Source: Subtercola boreus (GTDB lineage: Bacteria > Actinomycetota > Actinomycetes > Actinomycetales > Microbacteriaceae). From it: 64,000 bases of DNA. The position numbers and the translations under genes are program-made. Numbering within the stretch: the first letter of the stretch is position 1; each line of letters opens with the position of its first letter. The stretch is taken from NCBI RefSeq assembly GCF_006716115.1, contig NZ_VFOO01000001.1, forward strand, positions 3,844,001-3,908,000. Direction: 5' to 3'. This document shows positions 56,117-64,000 of the stretch, in pieces. The notes beneath the pieces were generated by a model that was not told where the DNA came from, did not search any database, and worked only from the letters and a program-made list of their open reading frames with translations.

Positions 56117-56206
56117 GGTACCGTGTCCGAGCGGCCGAAGGTGCAACTCTCGAAAAGTTGTGTGCTTGAAAGAGCACCGTGGGTTCAAATCCCACCGGTA
56201 CCGCCA
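56117..56206 (+). tRNA. tRNA-Ser(CGA)
   Basis: A 90-base tRNA with CCA encoded. The acceptor arms GGTACCG and CGGTACC pair fully and the discriminator is G. The anticodon stem CAACT/AGTTG encloses loop CTCGAAA, giving anticodon CGA, and the long variable arm GTGCTTGAAAGAGCAC marks it as a serine tRNA. The T arm contains GGGTTCAAATCCC. The element starting with the integrase gene sits directly at its 3' end. Confidence 0.95.
56180..56206 (+). other. Probable left attachment site (attL) in tRNA-Ser 3' end
   Basis: Tyrosine-recombinase elements commonly use the 3' half of a tRNA gene as attachment core. The T arm and acceptor stem of tRNA-Ser lie 38 bases from the integrase stop codon. The matching direct repeat (attR) would be to the right of the window, so this cannot be confirmed here. 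Confidence 0.55.
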
Positions 56207-56213
56207 ACCAAGA

Positions 56214-56256
56214 CCCCCTGACTTTCCAGCAAACAAGCGGAAGTCAGGGGGTTTTT
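56214..56256. terminator. Rho-independent terminator between tRNA-Ser and integrase
   Basis: CCCCCTGACTT at 56214-56224 pairs with AAGTCAGGGGG at 56241-56251 and is followed by TTTTT. It serves the tRNA on the plus strand; the arm also contains the stop codon of the integrase on the minus strand. Confidence 0.85.
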
Positions 56257-57377
56257 GCATTCCCGCTGACCTGATCCGGCAACGTATTGGCAACATCCGA
56301 TGAGTTCTTCGCGTGATCGAGCGCCGTCGCAACAGCATCAAGATCGTCGTCAAACAGGTCTGCGTAGGTATCCAGGGTCATTGCTGCAGACGCGTGGCCG
56401 AGCATTCTTTGCACCGCCTTCACGTTCGCGCCGGCGCTGATCGCAAGGGAAGCGGCCGTGTGCCTGAGGTCATGCACAGTCACCCGATCGAAGGACTCAT
56501 CTTGGGCCTGAGTCCGCTTGACCGCAGCGGTGAACCAGCCGCGCAATGAGTGCGGAAGGTGCATGTAGTTGACGCCGTCTCCGAAGATGAGTTGCGTCCG
56601 ATCTTTCCCCTCGCAAAGGCGCGCTAATGGATTGGACAGGAAGGCCGGGTACGGAACGGATCTCGAGAGGTGAGACTTTGGCGTCCCCACGATGATCTTG
56701 CCGCTAACTCCTACCGCGTTCTCCGACACCTGAGCACGCCGCCTGAGGGTGTCGAGGTCGCCGACACGAAGTGCTGTCGCCTCGCCCCACCTGAGGCCCG
56801 TGTAGGCAAGGAACAGGACCATGGTGCTGTTCTCTCGTGCGTTGTCGGCCAACGCTTGCACCTGGTCGTGAGAGAGGTATACCCGCTTCTTGCCGGTCTT
56901 GCGAGGGAGGTTAACCCCTCGTGCAGCGTTTGCGGTGACCCGCCGATCGCGGACTGCTACGTCGAGGATTCCAGCGAGGACTCCGTACGCTCTCAGCACA
57001 GTCGTCGCACCCTTGGCCCGGCTCATCTCAGACACCCATGTCTGAATCTGACTGTGCCGGATCTCACCGACGGACCTCGCGCCCCAGACAGGTTCGACGT
57101 ACAGCCGCCACGCGATTTCGACCGGTCGATAGGAAGAGGCCTTGAGCTGCGTTTGTGAGGCGAGCCATTCGGCGCCCAATTGGGAAACGGTGGAGCGGGC
57201 GGCAGCAGCGTCGATGAACTCGCCGCGGTTCTTTGCGTTCTCCACCGAGTGTAGGAACTGCTCCGCTTCACGCTTCGTCTTAAAACCGCGCTTCTGAGCC
57301 TGAGCGTGATCAGGCTTCCGGTAGAGCACTCGGTATCGTTTGCCCGCGGCCGACTCATACGGATAAACGCTCCCCAT
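56244..57377 (-). CDS. int: Tyrosine recombinase/integrase
   Basis: A 377-residue phage-type integrase that catalyses site-specific integration and excision. An Arm-DNA-binding N-terminus (SAAGKRYRVLYRKPDHAQAQ, KRGFKTKREAEQFL) is followed by a SAM-like core-binding domain and the catalytic domain with all expected residues: Arg in AYTGLRWGEATAL, HDLRHTAAS, LGHASAAMTLDTY with the nucleophilic Tyr. I chose the ATG at 57377, which shares one base with the repressor stop (TGATG). Located 38 bases from tRNA-Ser, its presumed target. Confidence 0.95.
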   Translation of the reverse strand: MGSVYPYESAAGKRYRVLYRKPDHAQAQKRGFKTKREAEQFLHSVENAKNRGEFIDAAAARSTVSQLGAEWLASQTQLKASSYRPVEIAWRLYVEPVWGARSVGEIRHSQIQTWVSEMSRAKGATTVLRAYGVLAGILDVAVRDRRVTANAARGVNLPRKTGKKRVYLSHDQVQALADNARENSTMVLFLAYTGLRWGEATALRVGDLDTLRRRAQVSENAVGVSGKIIVGTPKSHLSRSVPYPAFLSNPLARLCEGKDRTQLIFGDGVNYMHLPHSLRGWFTAAVKRTQAQDESFDRVTVHDLRHTAASLAISAGANVKAVQRMLGHASAAMTLDTYADLFDDDLDAVATALDHAKNSSDVANTLPDQVSGNAKTP

Positions 57378-57964
57378 CAGATTGCGGTCTCGTGTGCTTC
57401 TGCTGGATCCCATCCCACTGCGGCAAGAGTGCGCCGAGCATCGGAGTTGTTCAAGAGTTCCTGCCAAGACGTCGCATAGGCCTGGATCCCGTCGAATAGC
57501 GCAAGTGATTCAAATATCACGGACTGAGGCACCCGGGCGCCGTCGCTGTTCGCCGCCCAAGCAGTGGGGTGCTCTGCGTATCGCCGAACTGCATGGACGT
57601 ACTCGTCTCGAATCGCCCTCAGAGCGCGCATACTGTCGGCCATATCAAACAGCTCTTCCCCGAAAGTCCTGCCTGCCTCCTTGACGTTGTTTGCAAGGGA
57701 CTCGGGGGAATCAGGGAATCGATCTGCCAGCGCCTCGACAGGAAGTCCAACCAGACTCGCGAGCTCGACGCCCTCCCCGACCGTGACTCGCCTTCTACCG
57801 TTCTCAATCTTGTAGACGGTCTGCTGGTGAAAGTCGTAGTTGCGCATAGACATGTGACGCGCAACATCGTCTTGGGTCAGCCCCTTGGCCTCACGAGCGA
57901 CTCGAAACATCGAGGCGAAGGCTTCGTCGCCGCTTTCAAATATTCGTTCGCTGTCATTTGCCAT
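57377..57964 (-). CDS. XRE-family repressor (immunity repressor-like)
   Basis: A 195-residue regulator. An N-terminal HTH_3 domain (MFRVAREAKGLTQDDVARHM, then QTVYKIENGRRRVTVGEGVE) lies at residues 19-75; the C-terminal part is helical and has no recognised peptidase motif. Co-directional with and coupled to the integrase. It is divergent from the excisionase-like gene, the normal layout of a lysogeny switch, and TGGTGTT half-sites lie in the shared spacer. Confidence 0.85.
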   Translation of the reverse strand: MANDSERIFESGDEAFASMFRVAREAKGLTQDDVARHMSMRNYDFHQQTVYKIENGRRRVTVGEGVELASLVGLPVEALADRFPDSPESLANNVKEAGRTFGEELFDMADSMRALRAIRDEYVHAVRRYAEHPTAWAANSDGARVPQSVIFESLALFDGIQAYATSWQELLNNSDARRTLAAVGWDPAEAHETAI

Positions 57965-58102
57965 GGGCCCACCCTAACCAACTTGGCGTGCGAAAAGCCA
58001 TTCAGATAATTCTTTCTGGTGTTTTACCCCTCCAACAGACCCCACCTGTGCAAGACTTATGGTGTTAGAAATACCGATTCCGAACACCAGAATGGAGACC
58101 CG
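57965..58102. promoter_or_regulatory. Divergent switch region with three TGGTGTT half-sites
   Basis: TTCTGGTGTT (58014-58023) and its exact complement AACACCAGAA (58083-58092) form a long-range inverted pair, and a third TGGTGTT lies at 58060-58066. They are candidate operators for the XRE repressor. GGAGA at 58094-58098 is the ribosome-binding site of the rightward gene. Confidence 0.5.
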
Positions 58103-58342
58103 ATGACAATCCCGCTCACTTCGCGACTTATCGCGGATCAGCCCGAGTACCTTTCGCCCGACGAAGCAGCCGCGATGATCCCTGGGATGACCAAAGGCGC
58201 ACTCGCCGGCTTGCGATTCACCGGCAAGGGTCCGAAGTATCGCAAGCCGACTGCGAGAACAGTCATCTACGAGAAATCCGAAGTCATCGAATGGATCGAA
58301 GCAAGTGCCAGGCGTGGGACCGCTCAGGACGCCGTCGCCTAA
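58103..58342 (+). CDS. Excisionase-like helix-turn-helix protein
   Basis: A 79-residue protein: YLSPDEAAAMIPGMTKGALA, then GLRFTGKGPKYRKPTARTVI and YEKSEVIEWIEASARR. This is the AlpA/Xis winged helix-turn-helix pattern (recognition of a site, wing with a GPKYR turn, final ExxxWI helix). It probably controls excision or early transcription of the element. The ATG at 58103 has GGAGA upstream. Confidence 0.8.
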   Translation: MTIPLTSRLIADQPEYLSPDEAAAMIPGMTKGALAGLRFTGKGPKYRKPTARTVIYEKSEVIEWIEASARRGTAQDAVA

Positions 58343-58350
58343 GCGCCATC

Positions 58351-58650
58351 GTGACCAATTTCGGCCGAGCTGACGCTGCGCTCGACTACAACTCCTTGAC
58401 TTACCGGGACCAGACGGGAGAGCGCGCCATGCGCAACCTCGCCCCTGGCCAGTACCAAATCACTCACGAGAGCGGCTTGCGCTTCTGGATCGACGCAGAT
58501 GAACTGCGGCCGCTCCTGAGCCAGTGCTACGTGACCGAATCCCGACGCAGCGGCTACCAGCGGCTGCACCTCAAGAAAAATGCCCCCGAATCTGCGTCAA
58601 CAGACCGAGGGCAGCAATCCCAACCGAACACTCACGAACCGAAGGAATGA
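58351..58650 (+). CDS. Hypothetical protein of the element (99 aa)
   Basis: No family recognised. The product starts VTNFGRADAALDYNSLTYRD at a GTG (58351); an internal ATG at 58429 is an alternative that would give 73 residues. The middle, PGQYQITHESGLRFWIDADE, looks like beta-strands, and the last 25 residues are polar and probably disordered. It follows the excisionase-like gene by 8 bases. Confidence 0.5.
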   Translation: MTNFGRADAALDYNSLTYRDQTGERAMRNLAPGQYQITHESGLRFWIDADELRPLLSQCYVTESRRSGYQRLHLKKNAPESASTDRGQQSQPNTHEPKE

Positions 58651-58654
58651 CAAG

Positions 58655-59305
58655 ATGTCAACCACTATTCTCGCACACCGCCCCACCGTGCAACTCGTCA
58701 AATACGTTCCCGTGGCCGAGTTCGAAGGAAAGATCTACAAGAACGGCCAGGCAATCGGCGAGTCACTGTGGACGCGCTCCTACGATGCTGATGGGCTCGA
58801 GTTCGAACACACTGTCGCGGATGAGACAGCAAAGGCCCTCCTGCGCGGATGGGTGGGTGACAGCATCACTGACGATGCCGGCACCCACGTCTTCGACGGA
58901 AGATACTCGGCTGAGGAGGTGGTCGAGATTGATGGGGAACGTATGGTGCGCCTGCAGTTGTGGGGCTGGTATCCCTGCCCCGACTTCGAATGGTGCGTCG
59001 GACACCAGGCGCACGGCAGCGTACTTCCGCTCACGGAGCTTGTGCACGAGCGCCGCCTCGGTGTCATCCAAGATCTAGGCTTCGCTCCCACTGCCTGCCA
59101 GCAGAGCGGGGTGGAGGCTTGGGTGCAGCAGGAGGGCGAGACGGGCACTCCCTTTCTGGGCGTGGACATCACGGTCGATCGAAGCTTCGCGCTCGAAGAC
59201 ATCGCACCGTTCGTAGCAAGTCTTCGCTCGGTCGCCGACAAGCTCGAACGAATGAAGTCGGCCGTCTCCCTGGCGGGCATCGGCGCCGATCTCGCGACGA
59301 TCTAG
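58655..59305 (+). CDS. Hypothetical protein of the element (216 aa)
   Basis: No family recognised. A soluble acidic protein with several strand-like stretches (MVRLQLWGWYPCPDFEWCVG; VEAWVQQEGETGTPFLGVDI) and a helical C-terminus (ASLRSVADKLERMKSAVSLA). AAGGAATGACAAG precedes the ATG at 58655. A rho-independent terminator follows 34 bases after its stop, so it ends the first rightward transcription unit. Confidence 0.65.
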   Translation: MSTTILAHRPTVQLVKYVPVAEFEGKIYKNGQAIGESLWTRSYDADGLEFEHTVADETAKALLRGWVGDSITDDAGTHVFDGRYSAEEVVEIDGERMVRLQLWGWYPCPDFEWCVGHQAHGSVLPLTELVHERRLGVIQDLGFAPTACQQSGVEAWVQQEGETGTPFLGVDITVDRSFALEDIAPFVASLRSVADKLERMKSAVSLAGIGADLATI

Positions 59306-59338
59306 AGGCACCTCGACAACAGCCCCAGCAGCGGGCGC

Positions 59339-59365
59339 AAAGGCACTCCATCCGGGGTGCCTTTT
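59339..59365 (+). terminator. Rho-independent terminator
   Basis: AAAGGCAC at 59339-59346 pairs with GTGCC-TTT ending in TTTT at 59358-59365, with CTCC/GGGG nearby extending the stem. It lies in the 104-base gap between the hypothetical gene and the replication-type gene. Confidence 0.65.
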
Positions 59366-59409
59366 GTCGTACCCCGGGCAACAACTTCACAGAGGTAGAA
59401 AGGCCAAGA

Positions 59410-60291
59410 ATGGCTGACGCAAGACTCAATTCTCAATGGCTCAACCATCCGCGGTTCGATGACCTGTCTGATGCTGCCTGGCGAGTGTTCACGGGCGCTC
59501 TCATGTGGTCCAACGGCCGAGGCACTGACGGTCATGTTCCCACCCGCTACGTGCGTCTACTGCACCCTGACGGGCCGCAAGCCGACGCCTGCAAAGAGAT
59601 CGAAGAGGCTGGTCTTTGGGAGACGGCCGTGGACGGCTATGTCCTTTTTGGATGGGCCGGTGACCTCGGTCAGTCGACCGCGGCGCAGGTGGAGCAGACG
59701 AAGGAGAACAATCGGCAGCGTCAACAGCGTTTCCGAGATGAGCAAGCCAAGCGGGCATCTGAAATCACTCCGAAGTCTCGCCCTGTGGGTGACGTAACGC
59801 GTTACGGAACACGTGATGAAACGGCATACGTAGGACAGGACAGTGATAGGACAGGCTCAAGTTCAAAGCCGGTCTCGAAGCACCCCAAGCCGCCGCCTGT
59901 CAGCGATGAAGAGTTCGACAGGTTCTGGGATCACTATCCGCGCAAACAGGCTAAAGCCGTCGCGCGAACGGCCTTCTTGAAAGCTCGAAAGACAACGTCG
60001 CTCGAAGTGCTGCTGAACGGCTCGCAGTCATACGCGCTCATGAGCATCGGCACCGATAAGTCGTATCTCAAACTTCCTGCCGGCTGGCTGAACGATCGCC
60101 GTTGGGAGGACGAAAGCCTTCCAACCGTCCCATCGCGACAGACGCCTGAGCGATACACGCAAACATTCGCCCCAAGCCAGGGAGCGATCACCCTCGATGA
60201 GACGTACTGCCCCAAACATGCGGGCTACCCCATCACGCCATATCGACCCTGCGCAGCGTGCGCTGAAGTTCCTGAAGGGAATCCATTTTGA
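59410..60291 (+). CDS. Phage-type replication protein with C-terminal zinc-like cluster
   Basis: A 293-residue protein. The N-terminal 90 residues (LNSQWLNHPRFDDLSDAAWR, VFTGALMWSNGRGTDG) resemble the winged-helix starts of phage replisome organisers. A charged linker follows, then FDRFWDHYPRKQAKAVARTA, the helical segment common in phage and plasmid replication initiators, and a C-terminus with CPKHAGY and CAAC. GAGGTAGAAAGG precedes the ATG. It probably recruits host DnaB or primase; this is an inference. Confidence 0.7.
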   Translation: MADARLNSQWLNHPRFDDLSDAAWRVFTGALMWSNGRGTDGHVPTRYVRLLHPDGPQADACKEIEEAGLWETAVDGYVLFGWAGDLGQSTAAQVEQTKENNRQRQQRFRDEQAKRASEITPKSRPVGDVTRYGTRDETAYVGQDSDRTGSSSKPVSKHPKPPPVSDEEFDRFWDHYPRKQAKAVARTAFLKARKTTSLEVLLNGSQSYALMSIGTDKSYLKLPAGWLNDRRWEDESLPTVPSRQTPERYTQTFAPSQGAITLDETYCPKHAGYPITPYRPCAACAEVPEGNPF

Positions 60292-60506
60292 GAGACAACA
60301 GTGAGATCGACCGCGGCGTGCGCTGCGAAAGCCACGTCGGCGAAGCCTTTCCTCCCCGATGCCGCGACTGTGTAGAGCTATCAGCCGATAACGCGTCTGC
60401 TGCGGCACCCGTGGTGCCCCTACACGAGTGGGACTGCTCAAACGGAATCCACAAGCCCGACGTCGGCGGATGGTGCGTTCTCTGTGGCGCTGGGGGTGCA
60501 GCATGA
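60288..60506 (+). CDS. Small Cys-rich protein (72 aa)
   Basis: Starts at a TTG overlapping the previous stop (TTGA), with GAAGGGAA 7-10 bases upstream. The product has two likely metal clusters: CESHVGEAFPPRCRDC and CSNGIHKPDVGGWCVLCG. Tiny zinc-ribbon proteins are common in phage early regions. Its stop overlaps the next start (ATGA). Confidence 0.55.
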   Translation: MRDNSEIDRGVRCESHVGEAFPPRCRDCVELSADNASAAAPVVPLHEWDCSNGIHKPDVGGWCVLCGAGGAA

Positions 60507-60796
60507 GCCTCCTCACCAGCGCGCAGACGCAGGAGATCGTCGTGAAGCTTGTGCAAGCCCACCTCGAACACACCGCCGGCAACATGTTCCACGAGCTCGT
60601 CACCGAGTGCGTCGGAGAGACCCCATTTGAGACGCTGCAAAACGTTTCCAGTGTCGCGACGGCGGCCATCATCCACATCAGCTACATCCTGACCATCCCA
60701 GGGGGGCAGGGGACGGCCGATGCCCTCCACATCCTCTCAATGGCACCTATGTGGGCTGCCCTCAACGACATAGAGCAGGAGATGCCGCGTGAGTGA
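60503..60796 (+). CDS. Hypothetical protein of the element (97 aa)
   Basis: No family recognised. A mostly helical protein (TSAQTQEIVVKLVQAHLEHT; TAAIIHISYILTIPGG) that overlaps both neighbours by a few bases, as expected for a compact phage-type operon. No signal peptide or clear membrane helix. Confidence 0.6.
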   Translation: MSLLTSAQTQEIVVKLVQAHLEHTAGNMFHELVTECVGETPFETLQNVSSVATAAIIHISYILTIPGGQGTADALHILSMAPMWAALNDIEQEMPRE

Positions 60797-61445
60797 CAAT
60801 CGACAGACCGGCCTCGGGCCGACGAAACGCGTGCCGTGGATTCCGCTCACCGACACCGAGATCACCCGGGCGAAACAACGGGCCATGCTCGCCGTGGACG
60901 TCGACCAGGCGTTGACGTGGCACCAGACGATGCTCGACCTCATCGCCGAGGAACTGGACGACCAGGACTTCACCACCAGGCGAATGACTGCGCTCACGAT
61001 CTCCAACCGTGAACGGAAACGAGCGCAGGCCCGACTGCACTACAAGTTCGACCCGAGACGCCGCAAAGCGAAGCTCATTTCCGCCGACATCGCTGCACTG
61101 CGCGCGAAGATGGAGAACCAGGCCAAGCTCTGGCGCGAACGATTCACACCCGAGGTCATCGCAGCCACCGCAGCCGCCGTCGAGCGCCCCGCAACACCCA
61201 AGCCGAGGGTTCGCCCGTCTACGCGTAAAGCCCCCGTTAGGCGGGAGCCTATGGATGAGCCAGCCGTATTCACCCGGACACTCGACGGCATCGACCCGAT
61301 CGACATCCGCATGATCAAGGCCGATACCAGACTCGACCTCGAGAGCGCCACCGACGAGATGGTGAAATCCGCCTACCTCGCCAAGGGCACGCCGGCCGAT
61401 GTGGCCGACCAGTACGTCGCCCTCCTGAACGGGGCGAAGTCATGA
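60789..61445 (+). CDS. Hypothetical protein of the element (218 aa)
   Basis: No family recognised. GTG start at 60789 overlapping the upstream gene by 8 bases. The central part (ISNRERKRAQARLHYKFDPR, RRKAKLISADIAALRAKMEN) is basic and helical, suggesting nucleic-acid or protein contacts; the C-terminal 40 residues (DIRMIKADTRLDLESATDEM) are acidic and helical. The Arg/Pro-rich linker near residue 140 separates the two. Confidence 0.6.
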   Translation: MSDNRQTGLGPTKRVPWIPLTDTEITRAKQRAMLAVDVDQALTWHQTMLDLIAEELDDQDFTTRRMTALTISNRERKRAQARLHYKFDPRRRKAKLISADIAALRAKMENQAKLWRERFTPEVIAATAAAVERPATPKPRVRPSTRKAPVRREPMDEPAVFTRTLDGIDPIDIRMIKADTRLDLESATDEMVKSAYLAKGTPADVADQYVALLNGAKS

Positions 61446-61696
61446 CTGCGTTTCGCGTACCTGCGCGTCACGCGCGCGCGAGCAGCGTGAAGGCGAATGT
61501 TCACTGCCCGATCTTCATGTACACGCGTAGCGCGCGCGAGGTTCCCAAAAGGGCTTGTACTGAGACAAGCGGACCGTTTGGCCGGGTTTTGCAGTACACG
61601 CGTGTCACGCGGGCGCGCGCGCATGGTCTCGACCGGTCGACTGGTCGATTGAGTGCATTGACTGGTCAGCATCAACTCATCGGGGGTGTCTGGTGA
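61442..61696 (+). CDS. Doubtful small gene over GC-rich repeats (84 aa)
   Basis: The frame overlaps both neighbours by 4 bases (ATGA, GTGA), which favours translation, but the product (Arg/Ala-rich, MTAFRVPARHARASSVKANV) has no recognisable domain and the DNA beneath is dominated by ACGCG/GCGCGCG repeats. It may be a true coupled gene or an intergenic control region that happens to stay open. Confidence 0.35.
   Translation: MTAFRVPARHARASSVKANVHCPIFMYTRSAREVPKRACTETSGPFGRVLQYTRVTRARAHGLDRSTGRLSALTGQHQLIGGVW
61455..61670. repeat. Iterated ACGCG(T/C)-GCGCGCG motifs and GACTGGTC repeats
   Basis: Three GC-rich motifs recur: CGCGTCACGCGCGCGCG near 61465, TACACGCGTAGCGCGCGCG near 61519 and TACACGCGTGTCACGCGGG near 61592. 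They are followed by CTCGACCGGTCGACTGGTCG and TTGACTGGTCA. Iteron-like repetition in a replication module could mark an origin or regulator-binding sites. Confidence 0.4.
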
Positions 61697-62085
61697 GCGA
61701 GTTGGACGACTTGTTGCGTGGGGAGGTGGCGGAGTATGTCCGTCAGTTGTTGTTGCGTCAGGCGATTCAGCTTCAGAAGAGTGGGCGACCGGTTCATGAG
61801 GAGATTGTGAACCCGGTGGCTGCTGCGTTGAAAGTGGCTTCGGGACGGCCGATAAGCGGGTCCGTGGTGTCTTCGTTTGTACGGGCCAGACCAGAACCGA
61901 GTGGGACGGCGTGGATCACAGCGCAGGCTGCTGCGTTGAGCATCCATCGGTCTGACCGTCAAGTAAGGCGGATGGCTGCTAGCGGCGAGATCATCGCCCG
62001 CCGAGTTGGTGGCCACTCGTGGCAGATCGATCCTGAGTCGCTTAGGAACGTGCAGGCAAGGAAGCTGACGGCTCCGATCGAATAG
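61693..62085 (+). CDS. Helix-turn-helix DNA-binding protein (130 aa)
   Basis: GTG start overlapping the previous stop. The N-terminal 60 residues are helical (LLRGEVAEYVRQLLLRQAIQ). The C-terminal half, WITAQAAALSIHRSDRQVRR, then MAASGEIIARRVGGHSWQID, is an excisionase/MerR-type winged helix-turn-helix. Role unclear; a regulator of the late genes or a packaging-related DNA-binding protein are both possible. Confidence 0.65.
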   Translation: MSELDDLLRGEVAEYVRQLLLRQAIQLQKSGRPVHEEIVNPVAAALKVASGRPISGSVVSSFVRARPEPSGTAWITAQAAALSIHRSDRQVRRMAASGEIIARRVGGHSWQIDPESLRNVQARKLTAPIE

Positions 62086-62092
62086 GTGCCCT

Positions 62093-62141
62093 GCCCCGGG
62101 TGAGTTGGGCACACCCGGGGCGGACCGTCCGTTTGCGGACG
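62093..62141 (+). terminator. Two adjacent hairpins upstream of the next gene
   Basis: GCCCCGGGTG (62093-62102) pairs exactly with CACCCGGGGC (62112-62121), and CGTCCG (62126-62131) pairs with CGGACG (62136-62141). They lie in the only long gap of this gene block and may end the early transcript or form a leader of the following one. Confidence 0.55.
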
Positions 62142-62200
62142 CCCCCTCTGCAGAGTGTGGGAAGCGGCATGTGGCCGCGCATTCTGACTTGGAGAACCGC

Positions 62201-62944
62201 ATGACCGACTCGAACCCCACCCCTGCCCCTGAAGATGTGACCCAAGCGGACGTCGATGCAGCAGAAGCCGCAGCGAACGCCGCAACCGCTCTCGTTGCCG
62301 AGCTCGAGGGCCGAGTCATTGAAGGCGATGAGACGGTAACGCCCGACGACATCACCGCCCAGGAAGGCCGGTCTCGCTTCGCCCGTCTGTTCGTGGAGGG
62401 TGTTCGGCGTAGGGCCGAAGAGTCGAAGGTCGCGCGCCGTCTCAAGGCGCTCGAAGGACTGCGGGAGGAGATCGAGCTTTACGCGACCGGCAGCGGTCTT
62501 GAGTTCGCGACGTTGCTCCGCGCGGTCAAGTCGGCCGAGGAGGCCTTCACCTCGGCCGTGCAGAACCACAACGAGAATGTTCGCGGGTGGTATGTCAAGG
62601 CCGAACGGCTTGGCGCTTCCGTCACAGATGGTCGGCCGATGCCGCCGGCAGAAGACGGACGACTCGCGCTCGGGCGCAAGGTCGGAGATCTGCATGTGGG
62701 ACGCCGTTGGCTCTCCCACGTGGACGAGGTGCAGTTCCTTGAGACCTCCCGAACCACTTCCTCCCCCGACGCTCTGTTCTCGGAAATTGAGGCGATCGAT
62801 TCTGAAGTCCCAGAGTCCAACGCCTCGTACTTCTATCGCGGCAGTGGCGGTGCAGTGATCGCAATGGATCACCCGGCGAACGCTGATGAGATCGCGAACG
62901 GTGCGCTGGTGCAGATCTCGCGGAAGGACGCGTGGGGCGAGTGA
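62201..62944 (+). CDS. Unknown element protein, 247 aa, coiled-coil-rich
   Basis: No family recognised. Start at the ATG 62201 with GGAGA upstream. The first 110 residues are Ala/Glu-rich and helical (DVDAAEAAANAATALVAELE; RRAEESKVARRLKALEGLRE), the middle is helical too (LLRAVKSAEEAFTSAVQNHN), and the end is more globular. The position just before the tape-measure-like gene suggests a structural or scaffold-type protein, but this is only a positional guess. Confidence 0.55.
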   Translation: MTDSNPTPAPEDVTQADVDAAEAAANAATALVAELEGRVIEGDETVTPDDITAQEGRSRFARLFVEGVRRRAEESKVARRLKALEGLREEIELYATGSGLEFATLLRAVKSAEEAFTSAVQNHNENVRGWYVKAERLGASVTDGRPMPPAEDGRLALGRKVGDLHVGRRWLSHVDEVQFLETSRTTSSPDALFSEIEAIDSEVPESNASYFYRGSGGAVIAMDHPANADEIANGALVQISRKDAWGE

Positions 62945-63201
62945 GCGTCGTGCAAAAGAACGAGGTATGGCTGAAGGATGCCAGCCCGCAGCAGATCAGT
63001 GACGCGTACGACAATGGCGAGCTCGACTTCGCTACAGGTACGGTGCGGAACGCCGCGGGCCGGCCGATCACTGAGCCACCTATGGCTGACGCGGACTACG
63101 CCGCGGAGCTCGGCATTACGGTCGAGGAGTACGGGCACATCAACAGCCTCGATGTGATCGAGAAGATTGTCGCCCATCACGAGAAGTTCGGTTTCCAATG
63201 A
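62941..63201 (+). CDS. Small element protein (86 aa)
   Basis: No family recognised. GTG start at 62941 overlapping the previous stop as GTGA; an in-frame upstream GTG at 62932 is less likely. The product includes MLKDASPQQ-like WLKDASPQQISDAYDNGELD and ends IEKIVAHHEKFGFQ. It overlaps the tape-measure-like gene start by 4 bases, a position where phages often encode tail-assembly chaperones, although no frameshift signal was seen. Confidence 0.55.
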   Translation: MSVVQKNEVWLKDASPQQISDAYDNGELDFATGTVRNAAGRPITEPPMADADYAAELGITVEEYGHINSLDVIEKIVAHHEKFGFQ

Positions 63202-64000
63202 CGACCGAGGGCCCCACCACTGTTGCGACCATCCAGGGCATCCTCGACATGGACCGTTCGCGGTGGATTGCTGCGATCGCGGCGACCCGTGAGGATGCGC
63301 AGTCGCTTGAGCAGATCCGGCCGACTGTCCGGGTGGACGCGAACGTTTCCGAGGCTCTCGCGGCGATCGAGTCCGTCCGTGCCGCTGAGGCTGGTCTTGG
63401 GGGGAACTCCACCGGCATTGCTGTTGGCGGGTCGGGGCCGTCCGCGGCGGATGTTGCTGCGACTGCGGCGCAGACCGCTGCGGAACGCCGCCACACGGAC
63501 GCGGCACGCGACTCCGCCGTGGCTGAAGTTGCTTTGGATGCCGCGCAGGAAGCGTCCACGAACTCTGCTCTCGAAGAGGCAGCAGCGCAGGAGACCGTCG
63601 CGAGGGCGACGAACCGTGCGAACACGGCGCACGCCACGAACGGTTCCCGTATCGGCAACATCGTCCTCGCGGTCGCCGCTCTTCTCCCTATGGCGGTCCC
63701 TCTCGCCGCTGGTGCGATCAGTATCGCTGGTGCTCTCGGAATGATGGGCGCCGCTGGTGTTCTTGCCATCGCGGGCATCAAGGCTCAGATGCAGCAGGGC
63801 ACCGCGGCGGGCGCGGAATACACGACCGGTCTTGGTCGTCTGAAGAGCATGCTCTCCACGCTCACCGCCACCGGCGCTGTCGCGATGATCGACAACTTCC
63901 GGTACTCGGTCGAGATCGCCAACGCGTCCATGCCGACCCTGACCCGGGAGACCGCAATCTTCGCGGGCCTCGCCGGTCACGCCGGCAACCAGCTGTTCCA
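63198..64000 (+). CDS. Phage tail tape-measure-like protein, N-terminal part
   Basis: The first 267 codons of a larger gene that runs off the right edge. The start, IRPTVRVDANVSEALAAIES, is the typical opening of tape-measure proteins, followed by a long Ala-rich coiled coil (ADVAATAAQTAAERRHTDAA), hydrophobic segments (NIVLAVAALLPMAVPLAAGA; AGALGMMGAAGVLAIAGI) and FRYSVEIANASMPTLTRETA. Tape-measure proteins set siphophage tail length. Presence without visible head genes upstream is unusual. Confidence 0.75.
   Translation, partial: MTTEGPTTVATIQGILDMDRSRWIAAIAATREDAQSLEQIRPTVRVDANVSEALAAIESVRAAEAGLGGNSTGIAVGGSGPSAADVAATAAQTAAERRHTDAARDSAVAEVALDAAQEASTNSALEEAAAQETVARATNRANTAHATNGSRIGNIVLAVAALLPMAVPLAAGAISIAGALGMMGAAGVLAIAGIKAQMQQGTAAGAEYTTGLGRLKSMLSTLTATGAVAMIDNFRYSVEIANASMPTLTRETAIFAGLAGHAGNQLF

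Follow-up and report, generated by a model that had tools for sequence, protein, structure and literature searches.

Phage satellites that manipulate the tail rather than the head of their helper were shown in 2026, for one family only, the PLE of Vibrio (PMC12987554). PLE11 virions contain the satellite tape-measure protein (TMP) and no helper TMP, and deletion of tmp in three PLEs cuts transduction by 96-99.9% (PMC12987554). Here we describe a TMP-bearing element in the actinobacterium Subtercola boreus. The window, the whole stretch of 64,000 nucleotides that was analysed (G000:C1:3844001-3908000 of a 4.2-Mb genome), holds its left part, and the right part was read beyond the window end in extended coordinates. 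The element carries a TMP gene without a recognisable head module, an observation confirmed here, and similar islands recur in its bacterial family (genomes are denoted by G and loci by L). From sequence comparison, we propose that the element is probably a complete 15.7-kb phage satellite, and that its family puts its own TMP into helper tails.

Like the islands, PLE1, PLE4 and PLE11 of Vibrio cholerae encode their own TMP, and for PLE the formation of chimeric helper/satellite tails has been shown (PMC12987554). PLEs differ in the host phylum and in having virions with contractile tails; they also carry a recognised tail assembly chaperone, and PLE11 a baseplate hub (PMC12987554), whereas among the islands a chaperone was recognised in G373a only (PHROG E 5e-8). 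The two genes upstream of the window TMP, g11 and g12, have no tail assembly chaperone or baseplate hub match among PHROG and Pfam profiles. We read the islands as a probably separate actinobacterial family with a variant of the PLE principle. The capsid-forming PICIs (cf-PICIs) and the Streptomyces satellites MulchRoom and MiniFlayer, the latter two from actinobacterial hosts, likewise supply some virion parts, but they encode capsid, portal and terminases and are a near mirror image of the islands, which supply a tail part and miss the head (PMC10690885). None of the capsid, the portal and the two terminases was recognised in the window element. The cf-PICIs and probably MulchRoom use helper tails, and MiniFlayer shows short tail fibres (PMC10690885). 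AH14b, a 16.8-kb Pseudomonas prophage seemingly parasitising AH14a, is also small, probably uses a helper capsid and has one tail-assembly protein, but this is TAPI instead of a tape measure, in a single example (PMC4936722). The original prediction, made from the window letters alone, had called a satellite with a tape measure but no head module unusual; this holds in part, since PLEs carry a TMP and some cf-PICIs have putative tmp genes (PMC12987554, Extended Data Fig. 10 legend).

Phage-inducible chromosomal islands (PICIs) share with the islands a size of about 15 kb, an integrase at one end, a regulator, a replication gene, flanking repeats, some small terminases and the lack of a recognised lysis gene. 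The integrase-regulator-replication module stands in conserved order in the window element and in sister islands, and the spans (15,655 bp for the window element, with a median of 15,297 bp over 13 islands) fit the size of around 12-15 kb given for PICIs (PMC6092414). By the same source, PICIs have no phage structural genes and use att sites never used by prophages (PMC6092414), whereas the window element has a TMP and some sister islands have fibres.

The identity of the 63198 gene as a tape measure rests on homology, namely profile comparison and the operon position of its relatives. Alone, the protein has no significant match among PHROG and Pfam families, and a tblastn search at 1e-5 gave no phage record. 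One of the six members of alignment A1 (the window TMP and five relatives) matches a PHROG TMP family (1.5e-14). Comparison of the six-member profile by hhalign with three proteins called tape measures by PHROG (9e-85 to 1e-97) yielded a probability of 99.8 and an E value of 2.5e-30 over 446 columns, the match being confined to the C-terminal half from column 384 onwards. A relative in G007, 51% identical to the window TMP, lies downstream of TerL (large terminase), portal and capsid genes, and relatives in G007, G248, G240, G227, G327 and others occupy the siphophage TMP position, after TerL, portal and capsid. In a tblastn control, the island TMP of G105 matched 1,070 phage records; among the 12 of these matches listed, those with an annotation were named tape measure.

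The element borders are sharp. The attL core at the tRNA-Ser end (56181-56206) has an exact 26-bp copy at attR (71836-71861, outside the window), with 15,655 bp between the repeats, and the second-best direct repeats in the attL/attR scan are 13-14 bp only. The GC content is 60.2%, compared with 67.5% and 63.3% in short flanks. A host gene near the element has its closest matches in three Subtercola records (82-88% identity), and 22 of its 23 matches belong to Microbacteriaceae. We also considered whether the element belongs to a larger prophage and rejected this, as attR lies 15.7 kb away and no head gene was found after the TMP. From left to right the element contains a minus-strand integrase and XRE repressor, an excisionase-like gene, unknown genes, a replication initiator, small genes, a helix-turn-helix (HTH) gene, g11, g12 and the TMP gene, followed by a 164-residue gene, a 552-residue membrane-like protein, small open reading frames, a second integrase on the minus strand and attR. 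PHROG and Pfam profiles recognised no terminase, portal, capsid, tail-tube or lysis gene in it. The main features read from the window (a tRNA-Ser integrative element with integrase, XRE repressor, excisionase-like and replication-type genes, a tape-measure-like gene, and no terminase, portal or capsid) were borne out by the tRNA and repeat copies, the profile matches and the operon position in G007, and extension to attR carried the absence of recognised head genes across the whole element. A head module downstream of the TMP was looked for and not found, and profile comparison placed the 63198 gene among tape measures, not in a non-phage family.

Of the 398 genomes searched in the bacterial family, 49 matched the TMP profile, and G109 was added by a separate search. 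The 40 TMP loci inspected, in 38 genomes, comprise 20 islands, 17 prophage structural operons and 3 remnants (G140, and G385 twice). For 12 of the 49 genomes (G063, G120, G139, G221, G244, G255, G280, G281, G321, G339, G365 and G367) the TMP match was not fetched, G120 and G221 being read later at other loci through the searches with g11 and ccB. The prophage label of G347, G205, G250, G234, G202, G155 and G151 and the island label of G114, G004 and G278 come from reading of the gene maps. The islands belong to 13 genera, and that of G114 is broken over two contigs. Of the 19 unbroken islands, 13 are flanked by direct repeats of 21-55 bp, which in 11 cases lie at tRNA genes, and these islands span 9,858-18,280 bp; the other six have repeats of at most 15 bp, a chance length in the scan, or none. 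The order of integrase, regulator, replication gene and TMP recurs, as a general plan, in islands of these 13 genera. In one genome (G373), an island and a full prophage occur together and their TMPs are related.

Head genes were searched in the 19 islands by a transitive in-box search. Ten prophage loci served as positive control: in these, TerL and portal come in their usual order 8-13 kb ahead of the TMP. In the islands the search found no TerL, portal or capsid apart from the TerL of G295 and the capsid gene of G313. The complete set of a temperate siphophage, in which TerL, portal and capsid precede the TMP, is present in control prophages and absent in the window element. Bulk profile scans covered island proteins of at least 114 residues, with TMPs and recognised tyrosine integrases excluded on purpose. 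Alignment A2 held 49 of the 50 proteins of at least 250 residues (one split across loci was left out) and gave, with Pfam at E 1e-3, one Terminase_6N and one Phage_capsid, located in G295 and G313 respectively, and no portal. Alignment A6 held 145 of the 153 proteins of 114-249 residues (one split protein and seven others were left out) and gave, at 1e-5, two small terminases and one S74 fibre chaperone, with no capsid, portal, tail-tube or lysis family. One island protein is a ClpP-like SDH_protease by Pfam. The PHROG families among the matches listed number 25 of 43 and 25 of 48, and the statements of absence rest on the complete Pfam lists.

Upstream of the TMP lie gene families for which only island members were found. 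All nine loci of the g11 family are islands, the window element included, with profiles seeded in islands; the same holds for all five of g12, again with that of the window, and for all eight of ccB, a distinct protein upstream of the TMP. With one query each, g11 and ccB had no match in 50,697 phage records, and a peptide-pattern search of viral_contigs with TMP, g11 and ccB gave no relative. Both g11 and ccB look coiled-coil-like by eye; a single-sequence AF2 model of g11 had a pLDDT of 43 and was too poor for use. In the 16 first-set islands where g11 or ccB shares a contig with the TMP, the TMP starts 1.0-4.7 kb downstream.

These data bear on the possibility that the islands are decayed prophages, independent deletion derivatives which retained integrase and TMP by chance. 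Remnants do occur in the same set (G140, and G385 twice), one TerL, one capsid gene and two scaffolding homologues occur in islands, and the TMPs of G077, G120 and G239 are broken. However, exact repeats 9.9-18.3 kb apart still flank 13 of the 19 islands, the gene order is shared by islands of 13 genera, and the g11 and ccB families turned up in islands only. Random decay would not bring in genes missing from the prophage loci, and we regard this explanation as very improbable. A satellite is favoured over a single decayed prophage because the plan recurs in about 20 islands with full-length TMPs and with genes absent from the prophage loci. The original prediction had left the choice between a satellite equipped with a tail-length gene and a prophage stripped of its head genes; the recurrence in about 20 islands, 13 of them bounded by repeats, speaks for the former and against the latter.

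On a maximum-likelihood tree, the TMPs of 19 islands and 17 prophages are intermixed. The island and prophage labels need 12 changes on the tree, at least eight of them forced by well-supported branches; shuffled labels need 12.2 on average, and 269 of 500 shuffles are as low, so that no clustering beyond shuffles was found. This mixture, with at least eight switches, means that TMPs have passed between islands and phages more than once. For six islands the closest partner on the tree is a prophage TMP. Four of these pairs are well supported; G331/G205 (86/93) and the window TMP/G007 are not. Three pairs lie within a single genus (the window TMP/G007, G319/G373b and G295/G327). Pair identity is 43-56%, and the first half is clearly most alike in three of the six. 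TMP lengths are 794-1293 residues in islands and 800-1428 in prophages (medians 913 and 965; Mann-Whitney p 0.03, uncorrected for kinship). Shortening of the TMP as an aim was considered and is unsupported, as the six island/prophage sister pairs differ in both directions (+6, -6, -165, -37, +418 and +14 residues). The simplest reading is that long-lived islands repeatedly captured phage TMPs, the island-only genes being unshared and the TMPs shared.

In addition to the TMP, sister islands carry other particle genes. A probable small terminase was found in nine islands, five by PHROG and four by homology to TerL-adjacent prophage genes. The five are of P27 type (PHROG terminase small subunit, best 5.6e-20); those of G103, G295 and G319 are related to the TerL-adjacent gene of G007, one of them being tested and lacking a PHROG match, and that of G055 is related to TerL-adjacent genes in eight prophage loci. 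Fibre, spike or minor tail genes beside the TMP have PHROG support in G103, G109 and G114, and further fibre, spike and tail genes were recognised by motif or Pfam only. The island of G313 (L119) spans 9.9 kb and has a capsid gene, a small terminase and the TMP, with portal and TerL not recognised. Head-scaffolding homologues without a capsid gene occur in G105 (L032:11723-12088) and G258 (L098:16840-17286). They are candidates for changing the capsid size of the helper, by analogy: known satellites have capsid-size factors (PMC10690885), and the parallel to a scaffold without a capsid gene is one that we infer.

The main alternative takes the TMP as a weapon, a dominant-negative mimic that would be produced when a helper infects, poison helper tail assembly and so protect the host or favour the satellite, outside any particles of its own. 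Full-length, phage-like TMPs could compete with that of the helper, and tail assembly is a known target of defence, as for Tai (PMC11364771) and Rta (PMC12987554). However, the fibres, spikes, tail assembly chaperone and small terminases of sister islands suit particle building better, and the island TMPs keep lengths in the phage range; we judge the weapon unlikely.

A reverse search with g11 and ccB, which avoids selection on the TMP, counted loci at E 1e-6 or better. Among 359 genomes of the family, 12 matched g11 and 21 matched ccB; among 347 genomes of the order the numbers were 9 and 5, some of the g11 matches being weak. The count of 23 new loci leaves aside five g11 matches with E >1e-6 (G715, G419 and G485, whose loci were fetched, and G430 and G707, whose loci were not) and a match in G128 (E 3e-4, not fetched). 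An integrase or serine recombinase lies within about 9 kb in 22 of the 23, the exception being G221. G705 (L143), of another bacterial family, and G295 (L082) share the order small terminase, TerL, HTH, g11 and TMP, possibly a sub-lineage bringing its own packaging motor. Fibre-like genes without a TMP occur in G640, G191 and G250, with PHROG support in G191 and by eye in the other two. Among the 12 other new loci, no tail gene was recognised on the gene maps of G411, G097 (twice), G084, G468 and the serine-recombinase loci G119 and G106; the five loci left of the 12 were checked by TMP and head searches only. In ccB islands, broken or fragmentary TMPs were seen in L150 (G120), L155 (G239) and L149 (G077). 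The tail module of ccB islands appears to decay or be replaced while the island-only gene persists.

Many g11 and ccB islands thus lack a TMP, as would be expected if the islands were conventional PICI-like elements carrying the TMP as accessory cargo without a role in transfer, and their general organisation and size do fit PICIs (PMC6092414). On the other hand, the TMP keeps its place close downstream of g11 or ccB in 16 islands. TMPs also move repeatedly yet stay full length, which suggests selection on tail function, and we find mere cargo scarcely likely at all.

Several observations weigh against the proposed satellite. In the reverse search a TMP was found in only 6 of the 23 new loci (G705, G035, G159, G439, G239, where it is split into two pieces, and another locus of G347, where it lies upstream, not downstream), with remnants in two more (G077 and G120); therefore, the TMP is optional, frequent but not universal. 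The G295 TerL and the G313 capsid gene are confirmed by PHROG, and head-type genes of sister islands include the two scaffolding homologues and a neck-type protein in G373a. The window element itself has no small terminase or fibre recognised by the profiles used, and its 61693 HTH protein has a sub-threshold PHROG small-terminase match (E 0.051). The pairing of the window TMP with that of G007 is weakly supported (89/66), and the switches on the TMP tree give no direction of transfer. A clean empty site was not found, the right flank aligning incompletely in other genus genomes and at three Subtercola loci. In the S. boreus genome, a search confined to the phrog_2 terminase family gave no strong match (best E 4.9e-4), and therefore no resident helper of phrog_2 type.

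The TMP fills the tail tube, sets the tail length and exits ahead of the DNA. Lacking tube, head and portal, a TMP-bearing element is unable to make particles by itself. With PLE as the closest case that has been tested, we propose the following cycle for the islands. During growth of a helper siphophage, the satellite would excise, replicate and supply its own TMP. The role of chaperone or scaffold in this assembly may fall to g11 and g12, or in sister islands to ccB. The helper tail tube would assemble around the satellite TMP, resulting in chimeric tails that join helper capsids holding satellite DNA. By taking over phage TMPs, the satellite would remain compatible with the tail proteins present locally. 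In sister islands, a small terminase could add a choice of packaging, head-scaffolding genes possibly a choice of capsid, and tail fibres and spikes a choice of host, alongside a tail assembly chaperone. With somewhat less than even confidence, we extend this proposal to an as yet undescribed actinobacterial satellite group built on g11 or ccB and an exchangeable module of TMP, fibres and spikes, often with its own small terminase. TMPs would repeatedly have been taken from phages, satellite DNA would travel in helper heads with tail length, ejection and host range chosen by the satellite, and the island-only genes would be dedicated factors that direct helper assembly onto the satellite TMP.

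The features of the element are listed in Table 1. Gene calls come from a simple purpose-made caller, and the small genes are uncertain.

Table 1. Features at the tRNA-Ser locus of S. boreus, in window coordinates
Feature	Coordinates	Strand	Evidence or remark
tRNA-Ser(cga)	56117..56206	+	integration site; ARAGORN
Tyrosine integrase adjoining attL	56244..57377	-	phrog_1 E 6.8e-63; PF00589 Phage_integrase E 5.4e-20
XRE-type repressor, abutting integrase start	57377..57964	-	phrog_3 transcriptional repressor E 5.6e-7
Excisionase-like small HTH protein, divergent from repressor	58103..58342	+	phrog_66 excisionase E 0.0017; HTH_17 below cut-off
Unknown gene	58655..59305	+	open reading frame; no PHROG/Pfam family
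Replication initiation protein	59410..60291	+	phrog_270 E 1.7e-20
Small unknown gene	60503..60796	+	open reading frame; no relatives among loci examined
Unknown gene	60789..61445	+	in-box profile search: relatives in islands G114 and G373a, none in prophage loci
HTH_17 protein	61693..62085	+	PF12728 E 2.1e-4, under cut-off
g11	62201..62944	+	N-terminal part predicted mainly helical; upstream of TMP; islands only
g12	62941..63201	+	small gene separating g11 from TMP; islands only
Tape-measure protein, 915 aa	63198..65945 (window part 63198..64000; end G000:C1:3909945)	+	homology
Second integrase, 480 aa, unlike the first	window-equivalent 70042-71484 (L002:15042-16484)	-	right end of element

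In-box profile searches found relatives of the excisionase-like gene in five other islands and one prophage locus, and of the replication initiation gene in four other islands and four prophage loci. The second integrase may be what is left of another element, or it may form an additional module for recombination. PADLOC gave no defence match for nine proteins of the window element. In the island of G011, a cargo gene (L111:3228-4982) matches AriA (E 5.5e-20), GajA and others in PADLOC and is possibly an anti-phage ATPase. The tRNA-Ser site is clear in 11 of the 12 genus genomes searched, that of S. boreus included, G395 being matched by 28 bases only. Extra partial repeats lie 4-13 kb from the site in G723, G286 and G007. 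These repeats suggest an integration hot spot at the site. By eye, serine-recombinase islands of G278 (L088/L089), G077 (L149), G239 (L155), G119 (L140) and G114 (L027/L028) lie beside Tad-pilus-like genes, where insertion might alter a phage receptor.

The principle is known, and the family, the island-only genes and the repeated TMP exchange appear to be new within the literature searched. No description of this island family was found in the open-licence literature, preprints and subscription papers being largely out of reach. An independent actinobacterial family, if true, would make tail manipulation a general satellite strategy. Many Microbacteriaceae are harmless and culturable, and the repeated TMP exchanges would be natural experiments on which parts of a TMP match the helper, on the compatibility of injection and on forcing a TMP into helper tails.

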